The notes beneath the pieces were generated by a model that was not told the DNA's origin, made no database searches, and saw nothing but the letters and a program-made list of their open reading frames with translations. Below are positions 4,944-38,115 of a stretch of DNA of 42,169 bases, piece after piece (positions within the stretch are counted from its first letter, which is position 1; every line of letters starts with the position of its first letter). Position numbers and translations under genes: made by a program. The stretch is from Acholeplasma sp. Its GTDB lineage: Bacteria > Bacillota_I > Bacilli_A > Acholeplasmatales > Acholeplasmataceae. Location of the stretch: assembly GCA_003605085.1 (NCBI GenBank), contig QZKD01000029.1:1-42169 (forward strand), in the 5' to 3' direction.

Positions 4944-5057
4944 AAAATCCCCATCAAGCATCATCATCCACATAATCCATACGCTTATGGCTGCTTCAAT
5001 CAAGACCTGACCAGGTTCACGCACGACTATTGAATGATGATGCTTGATAGGGATTAT
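4944..5057 (-). ncRNA. ffs: Signal recognition particle RNA, small (4.5S-like) type
   Basis: The minus strand folds as one long hairpin. Bases near 5030-5057 (ATCCCTATCAAGCATCATCA-like arm) pair almost perfectly with 4945-4968. The centre carries the conserved domain IV signature GGTCAGG...GAAGCAGCC, the Ffh-binding symmetric and asymmetric loops. It is about 114 nt with no Alu domain, unlike the ~270-nt SRP RNA of Bacillus. It lies directly downstream of tadA, a common neighbour of ffs. The stem is followed by a short T run (TTTTC) that could terminate transcription. The apical loop differs from the usual GGAA form (see findings). Exact ends are estimated from pairing. Confidence 0.92.
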
Positions 5058-6478: not shown

Positions 6479-6988
6479 CTATTCAGAGGCGGTTTGCCAC
6501 GTGTGCCAAACCGCTAAAAACCTTTGTGCAATCAATCCAGTGACAACACCTGCTGGAATGCTTAAAAATAGCATGACAGGTAAGTATAAAACAATGGCCG
6601 CACTACTGATGACAAAGTATCCACCAACGATTTGACCTATGCAATGAAAGACAGAACCAATCACACTCACACCAAGTACACCAAAGAATTTTGTCTTTTT
6701 GACTAAACCCATCGCTAACACTGCAAAAATCGCACCACTCATACTCATATAGAAGACGGGTCCTAAAAGTTTGCCTGTAAGAAGTGAGACCAACAGCACA
6801 CGAGTCAATGTTAACCATGATGCATCCCTAAATGAATATGCATAAAGTACGACCAAAGTCACCACATTCGCAAAGCCCAACTTAGCTCCAGGAACAGGGA
6901 TGATCGGTATAGCAGATTCGATGATGTTTAGGACAATGGCAATAGCTAAGAAGTTTGCCAATAGAATCATTTTCTTTGTTTTCTTCAT
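6479..6988 (-). CDS. Gx transporter family membrane protein (EetB-like)
   Basis: A 169-residue integral membrane protein with about five hydrophobic helices, starting KKMILLANFLAIAIVLNIIE and including PVPGAKLGFANVVTLVVLYAY. This pattern matches the family often labelled 'heptaprenyl diphosphate synthase component I' or 'Gx transporter', related to ECF-type substrate-binding membrane proteins. Family members often sit beside ApbE and NusG_II genes in Rnf or flavin-based electron-transfer loci, as here. It starts 3 bases after the preceding gene and is last in the Rnf operon. The substrate and exact role are not known from sequence. A function in prenyl synthesis is not supported. Confidence 0.8.
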   Translation of the reverse strand: MKKTKKMILLANFLAIAIVLNIIESAIPIIPVPGAKLGFANVVTLVVLYAYSFRDASWLTLTRVLLVSLLTGKLLGPVFYMSMSGAIFAVLAMGLVKKTKFFGVLGVSVIGSVFHCIGQIVGGYFVISSAAIVLYLPVMLFLSIPAGVVTGLIAQRFLAVWHTWQTASE

Positions 6989-6991
6989 GAA

Positions 6992-7465
6992 TTATATAAT
7001 GAAATCCTCATCGTTATTTCCAAATTCAATACGAACGCGGTTAGGAAGACAAATTAATGGCCATCCGGTGGATTCACCTTCGCGGCTACATATATTGTTT
7101 GGTGATTCCTCTTGAATAATTTGCACACTTCGTTTTCCAAAATCATAACGGATCACAACAATTTGGCGTACACCATTAATGGTATAATCACCTAAAACAG
7201 TAATTGTGTTTTCCTCTTCATCAATGATGGGATAGATATTATCATACGTGTTGGGTACATCCTGATCATAATTTTTAATGACTTGTCCATTGACGAAATC
7301 AATGGTTACTATGGGATCTGATGAAGCTCCATAGTATACATAGGCTACAGATGCATCTTCTTGAAATGCGAATAAACGAAAGGCAAGATAGATTGCCCCA
7401 AGGAAGACAAACAACAAACTTGCCAGCAAAATATCACGTTTTCGCTGAATCATTTGTTGCATCAT
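6992..7465 (-). CDS. NusG domain II-containing membrane-anchored protein (EetA-like)
   Basis: A 157-residue protein with one N-terminal helix (about residues 11-32) and an extracytoplasmic beta domain. The C-terminal signature EESPNNICSREG...WPLICLPNRVRIE, with two conserved cysteines, is typical of the stand-alone NusG_II family. It lacks the NGN and KOW domains of transcription factor NusG, so it is not a transcription factor. The start overlaps the apbE stop by four bases (ATGA). As I recall, the same NusG_II-Gx pair occurs as EetA/EetB in the Listeria extracellular electron-transfer locus. The biochemical role is unknown. Confidence 0.8.
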   Translation of the reverse strand: MMQQMIQRKRDILLASLLFVFLGAIYLAFRLFAFQEDASVAYVYYGASSDPIVTIDFVNGQVIKNYDQDVPNTYDNIYPIIDEEENTITVLGDYTINGVRQIVVIRYDFGKRSVQIIQEESPNNICSREGESTGWPLICLPNRVRIEFGNNDEDFII

Positions 7466-8547
7466 GGGCGTGTATCCTCAAAGACTGTAGACTGCAAAAA
7501 TGTAGAGACAGTCTCATCATAATTAAAGCGAATCACTTCGAGTTGATAGATTTCTTGATATTGATTCATGAATGTTTCAAATTCTGTACTTGGCATTGAA
7601 AAAAGTGCAGTGGAAAAGGCATCAAGCAATCCTGCATCATGGCCCAAAATGGTCACAGTATGATAATATTGCATGGGCATTTTGGTTTTTGGTGAAATGA
7701 TATGATGATAACGCAATCCTTGATAGAGTGCATACTGTTCGTAGTTGCCGCTAGTATTGATTCCGATATTTTGAACATAGATCATGCCATAGGTTCGGTC
7801 GGTAGAACCGGTCTTAACCGGATTCGCAAGCGAGATGTGAAAAAGCCCTGTGTCGCGATTTTGATTCTCTCCAACACTGATCGAGCTGCTTCCAGCACTT
7901 ATGGAAAAATAAGTGACATCATCAGACATTAAGTAGTCATAGGCTAGTTGAGTCGCATATCCTTTGGCAAACGCTCCTAAGTCAATTTTGACATCTTCGT
8001 CAAGCAATCGAATGTAATACTTTCCAGCGTTTTCTGAAAGGATAAACGGTTCTTCAACAATAGCAATACCTTGAATTTGAGCAATGACATTTTCATAGAC
8101 TTCTTGGGGAATTTCATTGAAAATATACCCATCTTCTTCGTTTAAAATGACCTCTTTCCAAGCATCGATAATTTTACCGATGGACACATCAAAATATCCA
8201 TTAGTCATTGTTTTGATTTCCTCTGTGCGAACTAGGAGTTCATAGAGTTCTGGATCGATTTCAATGTCTTCATCAAAAGTTTGATTGATTTCATAGATGT
8301 TTGTCAAGTATGGCGAATCCAAAGATAACCCACCGTAATTATTGGTGAGTTCATGGTATTTTTCATATATGCTTTCGACTGCATCATTGAGTTCATTCGC
8401 TCTTTCTTCATTTTCAACATAGACACTGATGCTAATCATCGTGTCCATATAGTCAAAATACGTAAAGTTATACGCAGTAGATTTATTGCATGCGCTAAGC
8501 GAGATGACCATGAGCAAAGCGATGAATAGTACAAAAAGTTTTTTCAT
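7462..8547 (-). CDS. apbE: ApbE FAD:protein FMN transferase, lipoprotein
   Basis: Transfers FMN from FAD onto a threonine in extracytoplasmic domains of RnfG/RnfD-type proteins. Seen: a lipoprotein signal with lipobox LSAC (Cys20), DTMISISVY early in the mature protein, the central motif DLGAFAKGYATQ, SISAGSSSISVG, TSGNYEQY, and HHIISPKTKMP followed by the metal-site region HDAGLLDAFSTALF. The ATG at 8547 has an AGGG SD 5-6 bases upstream. A TTG 12 bases further up is in frame but is part of the SD region. It lies between rnfB and the NusG_II gene, so it plausibly modifies the RnfG and RnfD proteins of this operon. A weak hairpin separates it from rnfB. Confidence 0.95.
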   Translation of the reverse strand: MKKLFVLFIALLMVISLSACNKSTAYNFTYFDYMDTMISISVYVENEERANELNDAVESIYEKYHELTNNYGGLSLDSPYLTNIYEINQTFDEDIEIDPELYELLVRTEEIKTMTNGYFDVSIGKIIDAWKEVILNEEDGYIFNEIPQEVYENVIAQIQGIAIVEEPFILSENAGKYYIRLLDEDVKIDLGAFAKGYATQLAYDYLMSDDVTYFSISAGSSSISVGENQNRDTGLFHISLANPVKTGSTDRTYGMIYVQNIGINTSGNYEQYALYQGLRYHHIISPKTKMPMQYYHTVTILGHDAGLLDAFSTALFSMPSTEFETFMNQYQEIYQLEVIRFNYDETVSTFLQSTVFEDTRP

Positions 8548-8589
8548 AAAAACCCTCAATTCTTATAAAACATAGATTTCATATAAAGT

Positions 8590-8613
8590 AAAGAAAAGGA
8601 CAATAGATGTCCT
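8590..8613 (-). terminator. Weak hairpin with U-rich tail between rnfB and apbE
   Basis: The minus strand has a 6-bp stem AGGACA/TGTCCT with a 5-base loop, followed by TTTTCTTT. It overlaps the rnfB stop codon. It may partly attenuate transcription so that apbE and the two downstream genes are made in lower amounts than the Rnf subunits. Confidence 0.5.
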
Positions 8614-8932
8614 AAATCTTTACGCCAACGTCTGTTCCGTCTGGATTTGGATGTGTCTTTAAGTATTCTAAAATAGGATTAAAATGCTTATCAACCTTTC
8701 CGGGCTTGCAGCGAGAAAGGTTTTTTACCTCACCGTTTAATATCCCGATAGCGAATGCACGACATCCTGGGGTACCACATGCACCACAGTTATAGTTGGG
8801 AAGTAATTTTTCGACTTCATCAATTCTTGGATCTTCGATGACTTGCAGGTATTTATTTGCTAAGGATAGGATTACCCCTAATACAATACCTAAACCGCCA
8901 AGAACAATAAAGGGAAACAGGGCGTCAATCAT
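8612..8932 (-). CDS. rnfB: RnfB, short form lacking ferredoxin domains
   Basis: A 106-residue protein with an N-terminal membrane helix (about 4-25) and the RnfB four-cysteine Fe-S motif: Cys49, Cys52, Cys57 and Cys75 (CGACGTPGC then C). It then ends in a short charged tail. Canonical RnfB is longer and carries at least two 4Fe-4S ferredoxin-type motifs (CxxCxxCxxxCP) after this region. None is encoded here or in the 50 bases downstream, so this is a genuinely short form rather than a visible frameshift. It overlaps the preceding small gene by 4 bases. Identity as RnfB rests on the motif and on its place after rnfA. The loss affects the expected ferredoxin entry site. Confidence 0.9.
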   Translation of the reverse strand: MIDALFPFIVLGGLGIVLGVILSLANKYLQVIEDPRIDEVEKLLPNYNCGACGTPGCRAFAIGILNGEVKNLSRCKPGKVDKHFNPILEYLKTHPNPDGTDVGVKI

Positions 8933-9138
8933 AATTTGACCTCCTTCATAAATTCGAGTGCATCTTTAAAGTTACATGCTGCACGTCCACTTTTTGTAGA
9001 GCATGTTTCACATGATTGTGCTTCAAGATAAGCTTCTTTGCAAGACTCTGGAATTGCTACTTTTTCATTCAAATACATCGCACCAATGTATAAACCAATA
9101 AATGCAGCGATAATGCCGACAACAATTAGATATTGCAT
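8929..9138 (-). CDS. Small four-cysteine membrane protein in the rnf operon (NqrM-like)
   Basis: A 69-residue protein with one N-terminal helix (about 2-22) and a short cytoplasm- or membrane-side tail holding four cysteines: Cys33, Cys43, Cys46 and Cys55. One helix followed by clustered cysteines resembles NqrM, a small protein needed to mature Na+-NQR and proposed to deliver iron to the site between NqrD and NqrE. RnfA and RnfE are the Rnf counterparts of those subunits. It is tightly coupled, sharing one base with the rnfA stop and overlapping rnfB by four bases. The similarity is in layout only; the cysteine spacing is not identical, so function is inferred. Confidence 0.75.
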   Translation of the reverse strand: MQYLIVVGIIAAFIGLYIGAMYLNEKVAIPESCKEAYLEAQSCETCSTKSGRAACNFKDALEFMKEVKL

Positions 9139-9710
9139 TAGATAATACCCGAGAGTCCCATAAATGCCATCGCCATTAAGCTTGCGGTGACAAATGCGAT
9201 AGGTAAACCCTTCATGGCTTTAGGTACGTTTGCCGTATCCAGGCGAAGACGAATCGCAGTGAATGTAATGATAATGAATGCATAGCCAAGTCCAGATCCT
9301 AATGCATACATGAGTGCTTCTGGATATGATTTGGGGACGCCAACATTGGTGAGTGCAACGCCGAGGACTGCACAGTTGGTGGCGATTAAAGGTAGATAGA
9401 CACCAAGAGCTTTATACAAACTTTGGCTGAAGCGTTTAATCACGAGCTCCGTAAGTTGCACCAGTGATGCAATAACTAAGATGAATGCAATCGTATCGAT
9501 ATAACGAATTTCTAAAGGAATTAACACATAGTAATAAATGGGGTATGTAATGACGGCAGATAGGAAAATGACAGTGATAACAGCAAGTCCCATACCGACC
9601 ACAGATTTCATCTTGGTCGAAACACCAAAGAATGAACATAAACCTAAGAATTGCATCAACACGATATTGTTGATAATCATGGATGAGATTAAGATAGCGA
9701 TTAAGTTCAT
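9138..9710 (-). CDS. rnfA: RnfA, ion-translocating oxidoreductase membrane subunit
   Basis: A 190-residue integral membrane protein with six predicted helices. It shows NNIVLMQFLGLCSFFGVS near the N-terminus (conserved Cys in a half-helix) and YLPLIATNCAVLGVAL in the middle (second conserved Cys). These paired symmetric motifs are the hallmark of RnfA/NqrE, which with RnfE/NqrD binds an intramembrane 2Fe-2S cluster. Length is normal. Its start shares a base with the rnfE stop and its stop shares a base with the next gene start, so translation is fully coupled along the operon. Confidence 0.97.
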   Translation of the reverse strand: MNLIAILISSMIINNIVLMQFLGLCSFFGVSTKMKSVVGMGLAVITVIFLSAVITYPIYYYVLIPLEIRYIDTIAFILVIASLVQLTELVIKRFSQSLYKALGVYLPLIATNCAVLGVALTNVGVPKSYPEALMYALGSGLGYAFIIITFTAIRLRLDTANVPKAMKGLPIAFVTASLMAMAFMGLSGII

Positions 9711-10405
9711 TATTTCTTAACCCCCTTTGCTTGACGTGAAGCTGTGATAGTGGCGAGTATCAGACCAATAGCGATGAATGCTCCAGGAGGTTGTACTAGG
9801 ACTGCAAAGGCATATTTGCCTAATCCTAACCCCTCAAATACGGTATATTCAAAGCCGAGTGGTAATGTTTTTCCTAAAACAATCGCACCTGTGCCCAAGA
9901 ATTCTCTAAAGAATCCAATCATCATCAAGGATATCGCAAACCCCATTCCGACACCAATACCGTCTAAGAATGCTCTTGGAACACTGTTCTTTGAGGCAAA
10001 TGATTCTGCACGTCCAAAGACGACACAGTTGACGGTAATCAGGGCAATAAAGACACCGAGTTCAGTGGCAAGTGCAGGTGCAAATGCATCGACAAGCATC
10101 TTTAAAATGGTGACTTCAGTCGCAATAATAATAACATATATTGGAATACGAACTGTATCTGGGACGATTTTTCGAATCAGTGATACCGATGTATTGGTCA
10201 TCGTTAATACGAGAATGACCAAGATGCCCATCCCGAGTGCACCTTCAAAGCTTGAGGTGACAGCAAGCGCTGGACACAACCCAAGAACCATGACGAAAAT
10301 TCCATTTTCTTTCCAAATACCTTTGGTGAACACTTCCCACAATGAAGGTTCTTTGTCAGCAGCAGGTACAGCTTTTTTTATGGGTGCTTTTTTTGCTTCT
10401 GTCAT
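9710..10405 (-). CDS. rnfE: RnfE, ion-translocating oxidoreductase membrane subunit
   Basis: A 231-residue membrane protein of the RnfE/NqrD family. After a Lys/Ala-rich cytoplasmic N-terminus it has FTKGIWKENGIFVMVLGLCPALAVTS (conserved Cys) and later FIALITVNCVVFGRAESFA (second conserved Cys), the pseudo-symmetric partner of RnfA. PPGAFIAIGL near the C-terminus is also typical. The N-terminal extension is slightly longer than usual. The SD is embedded in the last codons of rnfG1 (GAGGTG then AAC and the stop), so RnfE production depends on the preceding gene being read. Confidence 0.97.
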   Translation of the reverse strand: MTEAKKAPIKKAVPAADKEPSLWEVFTKGIWKENGIFVMVLGLCPALAVTSSFEGALGMGILVILVLTMTNTSVSLIRKIVPDTVRIPIYVIIIATEVTILKMLVDAFAPALATELGVFIALITVNCVVFGRAESFASKNSVPRAFLDGIGVGMGFAISLMMIGFFREFLGTGAIVLGKTLPLGFEYTVFEGLGLGKYAFAVLVQPPGAFIAIGLILATITASRQAKGVKK

Positions 10406-10406
10406 A

Positions 10407-11402
10407 TTAGTTCACCTCTTCTACAAGTGCTTCAATGAGCACATCGACTAAATCTTTGGTATATGTGACTCCAGAGACAAGATCACCTGGATTGGATAAT
10501 GCAGCTGCAAATTCGCTGACTGTCTTACCAATAAGTAAATCAGCATAATTTTGAATCTTGGTTAAACGTGATCCAGCGGTATGTCCGTAGAGCTCTTCAG
10601 GTATGACAACACCGATGACTTGATCATCGACATCGAAGGCAACCTTCAGTGTGATTGTATGACCGGTGACGACTTCTTGACCGTTATCATAATCACCAGC
10701 ACCTGTTAATGTATACACATAACCGATATCAACATTACTTGAGTTCTTCACGATTTCCCTATTGACAACAAGTGCTGTCGGAACGAATGTTTCATCATCA
10801 CTGATGACATATCCTTCTCCATAAAGGGTTACAAGAGGATCATCGACGATTAAATCATAATGAATATCAATCGCTTTTTGAATAATTTCTTGAATGGTTC
10901 CTGTACTATCGGTCGCTGTAGCTCCTGCAGTTAAATCGGCCGCATCATATTCAGGGATATTCCCCACTTCAGCGTATGGAAGCCCTTGATAGTACTGATA
11001 AATATAGTTTTGAATACCCTTAACAGTCCAATCTGATTGAATGAGTTCTACAACTTGGACATGCACATCACCTGCGGGGTCAATAGCAACCCAAAGTTCG
11101 ATCATACCAAACTCATAATCATCACTATATGTGTAACCATTTTTGACTTTTACATTGTAGACGGTACCCAAGAAGGTGTCTCCTGCGTACGCTTCTACTT
11201 TGTAATCCACAATGGCATACCCACCAGAAAGAAGAGCGCGTTCAACATCGGTTTCGTTTCTCAGTTCAATCACACGATCAAATAAGAAATCCTTAGGTTC
11301 TTTGGGAACTATACTTTCGTTAGCTAAGATAAAGATTACAGCAATCACGAGAAGTATTCCCGTATTGATGAGTAACCATGTGTTCTGTTTGCTTAGTCTC
11401 AT
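10407..11402 (-). CDS. rnfG: RnfG paralogue 1 with two FMN-binding domains
   Basis: A 331-residue protein with an N-terminal helix (about 8-27) and two successive FMN-binding domains. The flavinylation motif, Dxx(S/T/A)G(A/V)T with the Thr as FMN acceptor, occurs twice: D156-T162 (DLTAGAT) and D307-T313 (DLVSGVT). Ordinary RnfG is about 200 residues with a single such motif. The second half is clearly similar to the second half of the neighbouring rnfG2 product, sharing GEGY, HTA and GVTYTK-LVDVL, and the same EVN C-terminus. The first domain has diverged more. It probably arose by gene duplication. It should be anchored in the membrane with both domains outside and modified by ApbE. Confidence 0.9.
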   Translation of the reverse strand: MRLSKQNTWLLINTGILLVIAVIFILANESIVPKEPKDFLFDRVIELRNETDVERALLSGGYAIVDYKVEAYAGDTFLGTVYNVKVKNGYTYSDDYEFGMIELWVAIDPAGDVHVQVVELIQSDWTVKGIQNYIYQYYQGLPYAEVGNIPEYDAADLTAGATATDSTGTIQEIIQKAIDIHYDLIVDDPLVTLYGEGYVISDDETFVPTALVVNREIVKNSSNVDIGYVYTLTGAGDYDNGQEVVTGHTITLKVAFDVDDQVIGVVIPEELYGHTAGSRLTKIQNYADLLIGKTVSEFAAALSNPGDLVSGVTYTKDLVDVLIEALVEEVN

Positions 11403-11403
11403 G

Positions 11404-12384
11404 TTAGTTCACCTCATCTAAAAGAGCATTGAGTAAGACATCCACCAAAGTCTTGGTGTATGTAACCCCTGCGGTTATATCCCCTGGATCTTGCATCATC
11501 GATGCAAAGTCCGTTGGGTTTTTACCGATAAATGATTCAGCATACGCTACAATTTTCACCCGATAACTTGCTGTATGATCGTAGGCATCTTCTGGAACAA
11601 AGACATCTAAAACTGTATAATTTTCATCAAAGAGAACTTCCATGCTCAAACCTTTATCTGTCACTAAACCATCATGACCTTCATAGGTGCCTATGCCTGT
11701 CAAATAGTAAACATAACCCACGACTTCATTAGCTGGATTTTTCGCAATCTTCTTATTAGTAATATTGAGTGTTGCGGTAAAAGAAGGATCGTTTTCTAAA
11801 GTGTACCCTTCACCAAAAGATGCTACATAAGGATCTGATGGGACATCGGCAAGGAGTGCATGTGCCGTAGCGATATCATTAAGTAGTGCTCGCACGGTGT
11901 TTAAACTGTTGGTCACGCCTGAGATTAAGTCACCTTGTGGGCTAGCTCCAGCAATCGATGATCCGATGAAGGTTGCAAGATTGGTTCTTGTATCATCAAT
12001 CCCTTTGGTTTGATCGATCGCTAAAATGCTCGCTCCTAAAATTTGACCTTCAGCGCTGACGCTGATGACAAGTGAAATCGAACCGTGTTGATTGAGTCCT
12101 GAAGCAGTATAGATATAACCTACAACAGCACCTGATGCATTTTTACCTTCGACTGCACCAGAAACCGTGGAAGGAACACCATCAATTAAGTCTAGTTTTG
12201 TAAATGTTTGACCTTCAGGAAGGACTTCTTGATACGCTGCGCGTTCTTTTTCTTCTAAGTTGCGCTGGATAATGGGTGCGGTGATTGCATTCATTCCACC
12301 AATCATGAGTCCACATACAATCGCAACAAGTGTCAAAACGGTGGTGTAATGAATCAACGGATTCTTTTCAAAAAAGCTTTTCAT
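11404..12384 (-). CDS. rnfG: RnfG paralogue 2 with two FMN-binding domains
   Basis: A 326-residue protein. The N-terminal helix (about 13-32) and the following TAPIIQRNLEEKERAAYQEVLP segment (TAPIIQRNLEEKE...) are those of standard RnfG, and the first FMN-binding domain ends in DLISGVT (D152-T158). A second FMN-binding domain follows, with GEGYTLENDPSF at its start and DITAGVT (D302-T308). Both Thr residues are predicted to carry covalent FMN. This copy keeps the classical RnfG N-terminus, so it is the likelier ancestral subunit. Its start shares one base with the rnfD stop, and one base separates its stop from the next start. It should pass electrons between RnfD and RnfA/E on the outer face. 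Confidence 0.92.
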   Translation of the reverse strand: MKSFFEKNPLIHYTTVLTLVAIVCGLMIGGMNAITAPIIQRNLEEKERAAYQEVLPEGQTFTKLDLIDGVPSTVSGAVEGKNASGAVVGYIYTASGLNQHGSISLVISVSAEGQILGASILAIDQTKGIDDTRTNLATFIGSSIAGASPQGDLISGVTNSLNTVRALLNDIATAHALLADVPSDPYVASFGEGYTLENDPSFTATLNITNKKIAKNPANEVVGYVYYLTGIGTYEGHDGLVTDKGLSMEVLFDENYTVLDVFVPEDAYDHTASYRVKIVAYAESFIGKNPTDFASMMQDPGDITAGVTYTKTLVDVLLNALLDEVN

Positions 12385-13472
12385 TACGCAGCACCTCCTA
12401 CACCGAAGAATACTACTAAGCTAAAGATAATGAGTAAGACAAGATAACTTGCCACAAAGGCAGGTTTAATTTTATTGGTTGACCATTTCGGATAATCGAT
12501 GAGTGGAACAAACATATTGGCAAATAAAATGGCAAATGCAACCCCTTCAGGATATGCACCAAATAGACGAATCAGTACGACCAGTACGGCGACGAATGCG
12601 CCATAAAGCCAACGTCCTGGACGAGACACCGGTGAAGTGACAGGATCTGTAACCATAAAGACAATACCAAACATCAGTCCACCAGAAAATAATTGGAACA
12701 ATACATATTCTAGTGCCATGTCAGGATAGAGTTTTAATCCAGCAAAGAACATGAGGATGACAAATGTGAGTGCTGTGGATAACATGACACGATAATCTGC
12801 AGAACGACGGATAATCAAGTATGCGGCCCCGATCAAAATCGCTGCTGCACTAATTTCTCCCATCGCTCCAGGAATATTTCCAAAGAATAATTCACCGATG
12901 GTGTAACTATTTAAAACGCCTGGAAACCCTAAACCACTCCGTAGAGTCGTCAGTGCTGTTCCACCTGCGACTAAATCTACACCCACATATGTACCATCAA
13001 ACATACTGGTGATGGCTAAGGCGATAAAAATACGTCCTGCTGCAGCAACGTTAAAGATATTGGAACCAAGTCCGCCAAAAAGCATCTTAGCGACAATAAT
13101 CCCGAATGCAGCACCAACAACAACGGCATAAATGGGGAGTTTACTTGGGACAAGAAGCGCGAATATGACCGCACTCACCGCAGGTGCTGTGATGTTATTA
13201 ATGGTGTAGTCTACGTATCGAGATTTCCATAAATTCCATTTGCCTTCAACTTTTCCTGGCTTATGAGTGATTCCAAAGACTAAAGCTTCTAAACCAATCA
13301 TCACCACAAGTGAGACGAGAATTCTTAAAATTGCATCAAAACCAAAACGATAAATAGCAAACGCAACGACAGGAATCAATGCGATTAACACGTCTGTCAT
13401 CATTCGTTTGGTACTCACATCCTTGCGGACATAGGGGCTTGTTTGTTTAATTGTTTGCATCATCTTCGTCAT
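12384..13472 (-). CDS. rnfD: RnfD, flavinylated membrane subunit
   Basis: A 362-residue integral membrane protein of the RnfD/NqrB family with about nine or ten helices. Seen: SPYVRKDVSTKRMMTDVLIAL at the N-terminus, MLFGGLGSNIFNVAAAGRIF, FFGNIPGAMGE, and MVTDPVTSPVSRPGRWLYG. The FMN attachment site reads DLVAGGT (D166-T172); canonical sites have SGAT, so Ala and Gly replace Ser and Ala while the acceptor Thr is kept. The ATG at 13472 sits only two bases from AGGAGG, so the ATG at 13463 may be the real start. RnfD is the likely ion-channel-forming subunit. Confidence 0.96.
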   Translation of the reverse strand: MTKMMQTIKQTSPYVRKDVSTKRMMTDVLIALIPVVAFAIYRFGFDAILRILVSLVVMIGLEALVFGITHKPGKVEGKWNLWKSRYVDYTINNITAPAVSAVIFALLVPSKLPIYAVVVGAAFGIIVAKMLFGGLGSNIFNVAAAGRIFIALAITSMFDGTYVGVDLVAGGTALTTLRSGLGFPGVLNSYTIGELFFGNIPGAMGEISAAAILIGAAYLIIRRSADYRVMLSTALTFVILMFFAGLKLYPDMALEYVLFQLFSGGLMFGIVFMVTDPVTSPVSRPGRWLYGAFVAVLVVLIRLFGAYPEGVAFAILFANMFVPLIDYPKWSTNKIKPAFVASYLVLLIIFSLVVFFGVGGAA

Positions 13473-13478
13473 TACCTC

Positions 13479-14777
13479 CTATTTCGCAGCGAATCGTTTG
13501 CCCAAACGCATATATTCTGTCAAATGAATCTTTGATGGGCATACAAAGGAACAGAGTCCACATTCGATACACTTGCTTACTTCAAGCGTTTTAAGCATTT
13601 CTTTATCACGTGTCTTGTATGCGTTCATGATTTGAACGGGTTGAATTTCAACTGGGCATGAATAGACACACGATGCACAATGAATACATGGTTCTTCTTT
13701 CTCGATCTTCTCATTAAAAACGATCAAACTGGTCGTCGTATGGGTCATAATCACATCATCTTGTTGGATGTTTGTTCCCATCATGGGTCCACCTAAGATC
13801 ATGACTTTGGGAGTGTCAACATCTTTATAACCACCAGCAAGTTCAATGAGATCGGTGACAAGGGTTCCGATTCTTGCTCTAAAACTCTTGTTTGCAACTC
13901 CATCACCACTGATGGTGAAGAGTCTTTCTAAGACAGGAATATCTTTTTTAACTGCATTATAAATACTTTGAAGCGTCGATACGTTAAAGTTTAAAACTCC
14001 ATATTTGGATAGTAGTTCACCTTGAGGAATCTTGATTCCAAGCGCGTTTTTAATCATTGCAAGTTCCCAACCTTGAGGATAAAAATTCCCTACGGTTGCT
14101 ACAGTGATATCAAAGTCAGTAAATTCTTGAAGTACGAACTTGAGACGTTCTTCAATTTCTTTGTATTTCTTTTTAATCGCGATAACACCACGTTTTGCAC
14201 CTGATGCCTTCATCGCATAAATCAACCCTTTGATGACCTCTCTTGGATAATTCATCATGAGTGAGTAGTCAGCAATTAGATTAGGTTCACATTCAACACC
14301 ATTTGCGATGACAACATCGATAGGATCTTTGGTTTCAAGTTTGATATAGGTAGGAAACGCACTACCACCAAGACCCACAAGACCTGCATCTTTAATGATT
14401 TGAATAAAGTCTTCTTTTGTAAGTGCCTCGATTTCTTGATCAGATCGCTCTTTAATGGATTCATGAAGTTCATATTTCATATCGTTTTTTACGATTAAAC
14501 AGTCGACCATTTTTCCACTATTGTCGATGTGTTTTTCATACCCAACGACTTCACCACTTACAGTCGCGTGCATGGGTTGTTCAAAGAATGCACCTTTTCT
14601 TGTTCCAACAACTTCACCGACTTTAACAAATTGTCCCCCTCTGACGCAGGTGACACCATCGGGACAGCGCTGAGATGTGACGGGATAATAAACATATTCA
14701 GCATCTAAATAGTGAAGTATAGGTAATTCTTTTAGTTGTTTCTTTCCATCAGGGATGAATCGTGTTTTTTCAATCAT
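13479..14777 (-). CDS. rnfC: RnfC, NADH-interacting peripheral subunit
   Basis: A 432-residue cytoplasmic subunit. It has an N-terminal sandwich domain (PVTSQRCPDGVTCVRGGQ region), a Rossmann-like NADH/FMN domain containing GLGGSAFPTYIKL and ANGVECEPNLIADY, an SLBB-type segment, and two C-terminal 4Fe-4S motifs, CIHCASCVYSCP and CIECGLCSFVCP. These are standard for RnfC, which in related complexes binds NAD(H) and passes electrons to the membrane part. Length is typical of short RnfC forms without the long alanine-rich tail. The glyA stop lies two bases upstream, so glyA and the rnf genes are probably co-transcribed. Confidence 0.97.
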   Translation of the reverse strand: MIEKTRFIPDGKKQLKELPILHYLDAEYVYYPVTSQRCPDGVTCVRGGQFVKVGEVVGTRKGAFFEQPMHATVSGEVVGYEKHIDNSGKMVDCLIVKNDMKYELHESIKERSDQEIEALTKEDFIQIIKDAGLVGLGGSAFPTYIKLETKDPIDVVIANGVECEPNLIADYSLMMNYPREVIKGLIYAMKASGAKRGVIAIKKKYKEIEERLKFVLQEFTDFDITVATVGNFYPQGWELAMIKNALGIKIPQGELLSKYGVLNFNVSTLQSIYNAVKKDIPVLERLFTISGDGVANKSFRARIGTLVTDLIELAGGYKDVDTPKVMILGGPMMGTNIQQDDVIMTHTTTSLIVFNEKIEKEEPCIHCASCVYSCPVEIQPVQIMNAYKTRDKEMLKTLEVSKCIECGLCSFVCPSKIHLTEYMRLGKRFAAK

Positions 14778-17512: not shown

Positions 17513-17628
17513 CTATAAGAAGAGCCCCATTAGGTATCGTTTCGTTACCTATCCCCTAAGGGTCTTCTTGTTGTATTTAAGTATCCTTTCGGTTACGAAC
17601 TTTAAACAACCCTATCTTAAGTCTAATG
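17513..17628 (-). other. Structured leader RNA segment between purine aptamer and terminator
   Basis: The 116 nt after the aptamer form two further stem-loops on the minus strand. The first pairs AGGGT/ACCCT and GTTGT/ACAAC around a CC-GAAA-GG tetraloop arm (about 17558-17613). The second pairs AAGAAGA/TCTTCTT around an inner TAGGTA/TACCTA arm (about 17514-17569), so the two overlap at ACCC and may be mutually exclusive. The 5' end of the transcript (TGTATTTAA) can also pair with TTAAATACA here. This could be a long expression platform or a second aptamer; I cannot name it. Confidence 0.5.
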
Positions 17629-17694
17629 ATCGTAGTCGCAATCTTTTGGCATTGCGGTAGAGACGTCATCACCATGTGTCATGACTTATACGAT
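17629..17694 (-). promoter_or_regulatory. Purine riboswitch aptamer, guanine type, in the ppa leader
   Basis: On the minus strand the segment matches the xpt-class purine aptamer piece by piece: P1 ATCGTA/TACGAT (perfect), TATAAG, a P2 arm GTCATG-ACATGG-TGATGAC with the kissing-loop ATGG, the J2/3 core GTCTCTACC, a P3 arm GCAAT/ATTGC with loop GCCAAAAG, then GACTACGAT. The base equivalent to position 74 (the C in GACTA) is cytosine, which specifies guanine (or a close relative) rather than adenine. It has its own promoter and precedes an intrinsic terminator and ppa. About 100 nt of additional stem-loops separate aptamer and terminator. Confidence 0.88.
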
Positions 17695-17710
17695 AATTAA
17701 ATACATAAAC

Positions 17711-17739
17711 ATTATAGCAGTCTGATGAGGGGTTGTAAA
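17711..17739 (-). promoter_or_regulatory. Sigma-A promoter of the ppa riboswitch leader
   Basis: The minus strand reads TTTACA, 17 bases, TATAAT, directly after the folD stop codon. The predicted start near 17704 precedes the aptamer by about 10 nt. This shows that the leader is made independently of folD. Confidence 0.88.
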
Positions 17740-37892: not shown

Positions 37893-38085
37893 AAGAATAG
37901 AAAAACGCCCTTAAAAACGCTAAGGACGTATCATACGCGGTGCCACCTTAGTTCTAGAGAATCTCTAGCCCTCAAACATCTTTAACGCAGACTTACGGAC
38001 GGGATTAGCGTCACTAGGAAAGTGGATTTCTATAATGCTTTTTCAAATGCTTGCACCACCCGCATTCTCTCTTGATCAAAGCGTC
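37893..38085 (-). promoter_or_regulatory. Serine T-box riboswitch in the serS leader
   Basis: The minus strand shows Stem I elements (AGAGAGAATGCGGG, then GGTGGTGCAAGC), a specifier region GAAATCCACTTTCCTAGTGA, and the antiterminator bulge TGGCACCGCG within CTAAGGTGGCACCGCG. The likely specifier triplet is UCC (38024-38026), a serine codon, which fits the downstream serS. The leader ends in an intrinsic terminator. Binding of uncharged tRNA-Ser to the TGGCACC bulge is expected to prevent termination. Confidence 0.93.
37899..37929 (-). terminator. T-box-controlled terminator before serS
   Basis: Minus strand: stem CGTCCTTA/TAAGGGCG (with a G-T pair) and a T run after it. The 5' arm is shared with the antiterminator region, as expected for a T-box. 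Confidence 0.9.
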
Positions 38086-38115
38086 ATATACTTTTCTTTC
38101 TTACGTGTTATCTCT

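Follow-up and report, generated by a model that had tools for sequence, protein, structure and literature searches.

Why should an Rnf complex be built with two RnfG proteins of two flavin domains each? The question is raised by an operon of Acholeplasma sp. (order Acholeplasmatales; assembly GCA_003605085.1, contig QZKD01000029.1), contained in a stretch of 42,169 nucleotides (positions 1 to 42,169), referred to here as the window. The solved complexes of Acetobacterium woodii and Clostridium tetanomorphum (9eri, 7zc6) resemble that of the window in possessing subunits C, D, G, E and A, with the Cys of RnfA/E, the flavin Thr of RnfD and the Fe-S Cys of RnfC, but they have a single RnfG with one flavin mononucleotide (FMN), whereas in the window two RnfG genes, each encoding two domains, sit between rnfD and rnfE. 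As relatives that have lost the ferredoxin arm along with ferredoxin metabolism still maintain the flavin subunits, the multidomain RnfG proteins most likely work with the NADH arm and with something beyond it.

Two tandem RnfG proteins of two domains each

The genes of the operon are all on the minus strand, and coordinates are those of the window. The rnfG1 gene (11404..12384, 326 amino acids, aa) and the rnfG2 gene (10407..11402, 331 aa) each encode a membrane helix and two FMN_bind-type domains, at about 34-180 and 177-326 in G1 and about 20-186 and 183-331 in G2. The gene at 10407-11402 is called G2 here because it is the downstream gene of the pair; a first-pass annotation of the window had named it rnfG1. 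That annotation had reported two tandem RnfG genes with two flavinylation motifs each, plus one motif in RnfD, and the open reading frames (ORFs), the coordinates and the five sites are all as it described. The candidate sites are DLISGVT (Thr158, 11911..11931) and DITAGVT (Thr308, 11461..11481) in G1, DLTAGAT (Thr162, 10917..10937) and DLVSGVT (Thr313, 10464..10484) in G2, and DLVAGGT (Thr172, 12957..12977) in RnfD, the latter a Thr in 72/72 aligned Acholeplasmatales RnfD proteins. The motif used by the annotation, Dxx[SA]G[AV]T, fits all four RnfG sites and is confined to the two RnfG proteins among the 48 window ORFs of at least 100 aa. When each protein was shuffled 20,000 times, two motifs occurred 0 times, and at least one motif occurred 84 and 80 times.

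As to the domains, the Pfam model FMN_bind (cut-off 22 bits) finds in each protein no more than a single match, below threshold, of 20.7 bits in G1 (23 bits for the same stretch in the genome search) and of 11.4 bits in G2 (E 0.52, no stretch passing), and at E up to 0.1 it matches 24/26 of the G1-type and 9/20 of the G2-type proteins of relatives. Taken alone, this result would speak against two domains per protein, but it is overturned by profile-profile comparison (hhalign), in which the four domains are mutually homologous at 92 to 100% probability, for example 99.4% for the N- and C-terminal domains of G1 (G1N-G1C), 97.1% for G1N-G2N and 100% (E 8e-50) for G1C-G2C, with an ApbE control profile below 1%. 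G1C and G2C are much nearer each other than either is to the N-terminal domains, and the comparison of A2 with A3, listed as the basis for rnfG2, gives 100% (E 9e-60). The probabilities against 40 RnfG proteins from outside the order are 95.5%, 93.3% and 94.4% for G1N, G1C and G2C, and only 4.1% directly for G2N, which is linked to outside RnfG only via G1N. A hidden Markov model of the domain also counts two per protein; it was seeded with the window's domains and is therefore not independent for the window. Judged by homology among all four domains, each RnfG has more than one FMN_bind-type domain, and the duplication of both gene and domain is real.

Likeness to known RnfG is seen in an N-terminal match of rnfG1 to TIGR01947 (39.9 bits, below the cut-off of 102), in the match of the solved RnfG 7zc6_G to positions 6-172 of the G1 profile (E 1.9e-19), and in the Foldseek match of the G1 model to the RnfG fold. 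In the models of both proteins much the same order of strands and helices occurs twice, each site lies just before a long helix, and the N-terminal helix resembles a membrane anchor. The G2 model is weaker (mean predicted local distance difference test score, pLDDT, 81; below 50 at 32-37 and at 159-164, the first site), with no significant PDB fold match in Foldseek. A PDB profile search with A3 returned an efflux pump at E 0.0044, judged to be a chance match, and the FMN4 domain only at E 0.26.

Distribution of multidomain RnfG

The same doubling is widespread in relatives: 32/67 Acholeplasmatales loci have two RnfG proteins of two domains each (2+2), 57/67 have at least two FMN_bind-type domains, and 10/67 have a single-domain RnfG. 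Totals per locus range from 1 to 10, with three single proteins of 1353-1434 aa carrying 9 or 10 predicted domains. Because loci were selected for matching the window's RnfG1 or RnfD, the 67 do not sample the order at random; they are those with both RnfD and RnfE, 6/73 being left out (L086, L087, L183, L186, L190, L191). L088, with broken ORFs, is counted as 1+1+1, L055 has a split RnfA, and L056 is scored as lacking RnfB in this count only because its contig ends. RnfG1 has a match in 53/61 genomes searched, the window's own included. A close-relative search with RnfG1 found no relative, and the RnfD alignment was therefore used, with the best 80 loci kept; among these, several domains or RnfG ORFs stand between rnfD and rnfE in L093, L094, L096, L097, L098, L104, L105 and L121, the last an Erysipelotrichaceae record and the other seven from Acholeplasmatales, as their titles show or, in the case of L104 ('uncultured bacterium'), as resemblance suggests. 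One of them, L093, is the 2+2 locus of Peloplasma aerotolerans M4Ah, a genus-mate of the window's organism, whose Rnf genes have been given as MDI6452236-38, 40-41 and 43 (PMC11122141); from the gene order, the two skipped numbers would fit RnfG2 and the small ORF described below.

Some further observations concern the RnfG genes themselves. Giant RnfG genes are found at L073 7897-11958, L074 3390-7694 and L075 6696-11000, and in L104 and L105. In L036 (7922-9899) RnfG1 and RnfG2 have second domains that appear by eye nearly alike, as would follow from gene conversion or a recent copying of the domain, and an additional ORF of L140, of 311 aa and with two loose motifs, lies outside the interval scanned for domains.

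Such variation would also be expected if the second domains were mainly structural, with FMN-bind2 units pairing face to face and copy number drifting by tandem duplication, creating no new electron path. FMN-bind2 domains of about 160 aa are often even in number and are predicted to pair (PMC10979944); the sites of G1 and of G2 are 150-151 residues apart, compatible with such pairing as far as spacing goes, copy number varies from 1 to 10, and some C-terminal domains (L037, L054) have no recognisable site. However, most second domains of the 2+2 loci keep a site, and totals of 3, which strict pairing would not predict, are common (15/67, the broken-ORF L088 included), and we consider a mainly structural role improbable.

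Rnf loci without the ferredoxin arm

Thirteen genomes, from three genera, lack RnfB altogether (PF04060 genome-wide in 0/13, versus 4/4 comparison genomes), among them A. laidlawii PG-8 (G064) and A. palmae J233 (G032); A. brassicae 0502 (G050) has kept it. In the same 13, the Cys ligands of the RnfA/E [2Fe-2S] cluster are found in 0/13 at each of the four positions, while elsewhere RnfE Cys44 and Cys127 are present in 55/55 loci and RnfA Cys25 and Cys113 in 54 and 55 of 55. Maintained in these genomes are RnfC, RnfD, ApbE and multidomain RnfG, the latter in 13/13, with 3 to 6 domains in all. The eight Fe-S Cys of RnfC are present in 11/11 full-length proteins of the RnfB-less genomes and in 55/56 others, the sole miss being a shortened ORF; L177 and L181, with partial RnfC, were left out of this count and of the RnfC+RnfD tree. 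Likewise, 13/13 keep RnfD Thr172 as well as N138 and D276; the latter two are aligned with similar residues in the RnfD of C. tetanomorphum and, through this alignment, we take them to be the counterparts of N123/D249, the riboflavin contacts described for A. woodii (PMC11889175).

The metabolic setting differs accordingly. Pyruvate:ferredoxin oxidoreductase is encoded in 37/38 other family genomes with Rnf-type RnfD (one as a fragment below cut-off) and FeFe hydrogenase in 35/38, versus 0/13 RnfB-less genomes for each. In a few of the 38, RnfB itself is not visible because contigs end, and five family genomes with weak RnfD matches (G027, G108-G111) belong to neither the 38 nor the 13. From this distribution it follows that the short RnfB tracks ferredoxin metabolism and multidomain RnfG does not.

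The RnfB-less state falls on two branches of the rpoB tree, suggesting at least two origins (9/13 sampled; approximately unbiased, AU, test p 0.017), and the RnfC+RnfD tree, with 11/13 placed, agrees. The rpoB tree has 27 rows, with G020 and G024 (long branches) and G025 dropped; a 29-row tree (AU p 8e-5) was not used, since the Rnf-less phytoplasma G025 falls inside the group and confounds the test.

Kube and colleagues reportedly described the acholeplasma Rnf in 2014. We suggest, tentatively and with rather less than even confidence, that what is called Rnf in A. laidlawii and A. palmae is a half-complex, deprived of ferredoxin input, of RnfB and of the intramembrane [2Fe-2S] cluster, a NADH dehydrogenase (RnfC-RnfD) that would discharge via a multi-flavin RnfG wire to an extracytoplasmic acceptor, a state reached in at least two lineages, with the window's organism, having a minimal RnfB, as an intermediate. 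Cytochrome-free, flavin-terminated NADH oxidation has long been described in acholeplasma membranes, though our literature search returned no such text, and the half-complex may be its genetic basis. The literature search found nothing in print on RnfB-less half-complexes, on RnfB shortening or on the small protein described below, and for Acholeplasma together with RnfG it returned only a listing of Acholeplasma among Rnf bearers.

A second, Nqr-like locus (B, C, D, E and F, with the cluster Cys of D and E present) is also found, at L089 4255-8098 (G000:C12) and in L192-L196; NqrA scores over cut-off in 0/6 of the genomes searched. In A. laidlawii the NqrC of this NqrA-less locus (L192 7495-9465) has 656 aa and four Pfam FMN_bind stretches, and a 669-aa counterpart is encoded in G063 (L194 4773-6782; only L192 was scanned by Pfam).

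A short RnfB and a small Cys-rich membrane protein

The rnfB gene of the window (8612..8932) encodes only 106 aa, a membrane helix and one four-Cys cluster domain (PF04060, 45.2 bits; TIGR01944 60.2 bits, below the cut-off of 68.7). Known RnfB proteins add two to seven C-terminal [4Fe-4S] clusters (PMC12174285); the RnfB of the window differs in having no C-terminal ferredoxin-type [4Fe-4S] domain. Truncation by a frameshift was considered and rejected, as RnfB is short in 54/54 Acholeplasmatales loci that have it (94-133 aa, all four Cys present, the longer values being due, we think, to upstream start choices) and as apbE starts 53 bases downstream in the window. Outside the order, RnfB is likewise short, at 91-126 aa, in several loci (L109, L113, L120, L121, L125, L140, L142) that branch with Erysipelotrichales-like records in the RnfC+RnfD tree. 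Longer forms are represented by four Clostridia loci (L110, L124, L129, L135; 264-276 aa) and by L123, L132, L137 and L162 (297-348 aa), with L158 at 172 aa; in many other outside loci the RnfB model found none, and this list is not a full census. RnfB can thus be reduced to one cluster domain, of which our literature search found no published report.

An unnamed gene between rnfA and rnfB (8929..9138), absent from the ORF list and read from the DNA, shares one base with rnfA and four with rnfB, and its product is a membrane protein of 69 aa that contains four Cys. All RnfB-bearing loci (54/54) have a counterpart, in 50 of these with at least four Cys, in L058 and L085 with three and in L059 and L070 with only a CxxC, and the four Cys are invariant in 17 aligned sequences (14 from the order, 3 from outside). 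In the 13 half-complexes the gap between rnfA and apbE is -32 to 28 bases, leaving no room for the gene in 13/13. A weak match to FeoB_associated is found for 12/17 members (best E 3e-4). In NQR, the small membrane protein NqrM (DUF539) is needed for the intramembrane [2Fe-2S] cluster (PMC12174285), and because NqrM matures the matching cluster, a role in maturation is a natural guess for the 69-aa protein, which we infer to be a candidate dedicated [2Fe-2S] maturation factor. Both are small membrane proteins; the 69-aa protein tracks RnfB and the RnfA/E cluster ligands, but it has no NqrM match: PF04400 (NqrM) is not among the 25/28 families shown for 17 small proteins. A genome search for NqrM gave no match over cut-off in 6/6 genomes (one at E 0.17, in G014), in a weak search that no control genome passed either.

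A proposed electron outlet and its alternatives

What, then, might the extra domains do? An account to which we give an even chance is that they are a side-branch outlet to an extracytoplasmic acceptor, in an ion-coupled Rnf-type complex. In the window's organism both arms are present, and, following the known Rnf, reduced ferredoxin would enter via the minimal RnfB, and electrons would cross the membrane by the RnfA/E [2Fe-2S] cluster, all four Cys ligands of which are present in the window, to RnfG, and then pass to RnfD, RnfC and NAD+. On the outer face, the extra domains would provide a side branch through which electrons from RnfC/RnfD (from NADH), and here also from ferredoxin, would leave to an acceptor outside the membrane. 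We infer this electron order, the ion coupling and the external acceptor; counted in favour are the presence of apbE in the same operon, a site at the same place in each of the four domains, the retention of RnfC, RnfD and multidomain RnfG in genomes that have lost the ferredoxin arm, and the NqrC with four FMN_bind stretches in A. laidlawii, and an electron outlet is the most economical account. A wall-spanning wire was also considered and rejected, since the cultured relative, P. aerotolerans, has no cell wall (PMC11122141).

A number of observations weigh against an outlet. The strict published flavinylation consensus, Dxx[ST]GA[ST] (PMC12052999), is matched by 0/5 sites, and in a fumarate reductase a change from A to V in the motif led to about 50% flavinylation (PMC12052999). 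Flavinylation is thus predicted, not shown: all five motifs put forward by the first-pass annotation as covalent FMN sites are present, but each deviates from the consensus. The Thr172 site of RnfD aligns with an equally non-strict one in the solved C. tetanomorphum RnfD. The loose motif is kept at 12/12 G1 sites and 10/12 G2 sites of the six nearest 2+2 loci. As to the single-domain loci, 9/10 visibly have a short RnfB as well (in the tenth, L056, the contig ends), and therefore RnfG multiplication and RnfB shortening are not coupled; a tight link between the two was considered and rejected for this reason. With two loss events the sample is small, and the one-clade test, at p 0.017, is no more than moderately strong.

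The physiology of P. aerotolerans, a 2+2 organism, adds to these points. As reported, it was not stimulated by sulfate, nitrate, nitrite, anthraquinone-2,6-disulfonate (AQDS), arsenate or ferrihydrite (PMC11122141). Thiosulfate and sulfur did stimulate it, with only traces of sulfide formed, and the authors attributed the effect mainly to assimilation; it grew more with some oxygen than in non-reduced medium without, and oxygen use was judged insignificant (PMC11122141). This insensitivity to most of the acceptors tested is what would be expected if the extra flavins were internal only, the two RnfG proteins making a fixed wire or buffer between RnfA/E and RnfD, with no external acceptor. Known Rnf and NQR have one RnfG/NqrC domain that swings between AE/DE and D/B (PMC12174285) and that such a wire would replace, and both RnfG proteins have an anchor-like N-terminal helix. 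However, a wire of this kind would have no starting point in the 13/13 genomes that lack RnfB and the RnfA/E ligands, and yet 3 to 6 RnfG domains are kept there, and we therefore regard a purely internal wire as unlikely. The idea of the first-pass annotation that the relay might reach an external acceptor gains indirect support from these relatives, but the responses of P. aerotolerans speak against it, and overall its interpretation is supported in part.

A terminal reductase is not found among the ten operon-region proteins scanned by Pfam, the only ones annotated, and the direction, outlet or inlet, is not fixed by sequence, both being further points against an outlet. The complex might instead work inward, from an external donor (reduced flavin or a partner cell, for example) to NAD+, with the extra domains as the intake; fermentative sugar users are, however, generally expected to have excess NADH, and no donor-side gene is found among the same ten proteins, making this highly improbable in our view. 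In its favour, Rnf is known to be reversible (PMC12174285).

Other parts of the operon

The window encodes Rnf subunits C, D, G, E, A and B together, in the order rnfC, rnfD, rnfG1, rnfG2, rnfE, rnfA, the 69-aa ORF, rnfB, apbE, a NusG-II-like gene and a PF07456 gene. RnfC (13479..14777, 432 aa) has the NADH/FMN domain and two [4Fe-4S] motifs (TIGR01945 322.6 bits, cut-off 245.95), and RnfD (12384..13472, 362 aa) matches TIGR01946 (209.8 bits, cut-off 207.05) and the solved RnfD 7zc6_D (E 4.3e-43). RnfE (9710..10405, 231 aa; TIGR01948 223.5 bits, cut-off 213.4) has its [2Fe-2S] ligand positions at Cys44 and Cys127, and RnfA (9138..9710, 190 aa; TIGR01943 227.2 bits, just below the cut-off of 229.3) at Cys25 and Cys113. 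The flavin transferase gene apbE (7462..8559; PF02424 158.6 bits) has, by eye, a lipoprotein-like start. Adjoining it are genes for a NusG domain II protein (6992..7465; PF07009 28.1 bits, below the cut-off of 29.6) and for a PF07456 membrane protein (6479..6988; 130.3 bits), possibly a flavin transporter, both found in the same position in many relatives.

Elsewhere in the window are a purine riboswitch (17613-17713), a T-box leader (37919-38113) and a small signal recognition particle (SRP) RNA (4952-5046). The same genome encodes small FMN_bind proteins beside genes that by eye are flavodoxin-like (L090 2398-3317, L091 6657-7492), and a 297-aa FMN_bind protein with a lipoprotein-like start (L092 6499-7392), a possible carrier that we take to be PplA-like by architecture.

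Relation to known systems and significance

Multi-flavinylated RnfG, with the hypothesis of an alternative acceptor, is already published: Meheust et al. (2021; eLife, PMC8238504) described RNF clusters in which RnfG carries at least two FMN-binding domains and proposed a second path to extracytosolic acceptors. The arrangement described here differs in that it consists of two consecutive two-domain genes and occurs in wall-less Mollicutes; Acholeplasma, Mollicutes and Tenericutes are nowhere mentioned in the main text of PMC8238504. As RNF is defined there by a requirement for RnfB, RnfB-less loci would be missed, and because the domains here come out close to or under the Pfam cut-off, their number may be underestimated in a survey of that kind. 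The NQR/RNF-like unidirectional systems, in which electrons from NAD(P)H reach an extracytosolic flavin domain via a NqrB/RnfD homologue (PMC8238504, PMC10979944), present a model for how the RnfB-less relatives would work. In those two-subunit systems the NAD-binding domain is fused to the NqrB/RnfD homologue, whereas here RnfC would feed RnfD, whose Pfam content is PF03116 only, with no fused NAD-binding domain (PF00175). Unlike those systems, the RnfB-less relatives retain the RnfA/E proteins, without the cluster ligands.

Sequence surveys have already revealed multi-flavin RnfG, for which a function has been proposed only. The RnfB-less comparison adds comparative evidence to the outlet proposal of Meheust et al., and it exposes a candidate maturation factor for an unusual membrane [2Fe-2S] cluster. 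In the RnfB-less Acholeplasma lineages nature has deleted one Rnf arm and so separated the flavin subunits from ferredoxin oxidation; these lineages make the hypothesis of an alternative outlet directly testable in small, wall-less cells. The same comparison makes it improbable that the complex annotated as Rnf in A. laidlawii is a normal ferredoxin:NAD+ pump.

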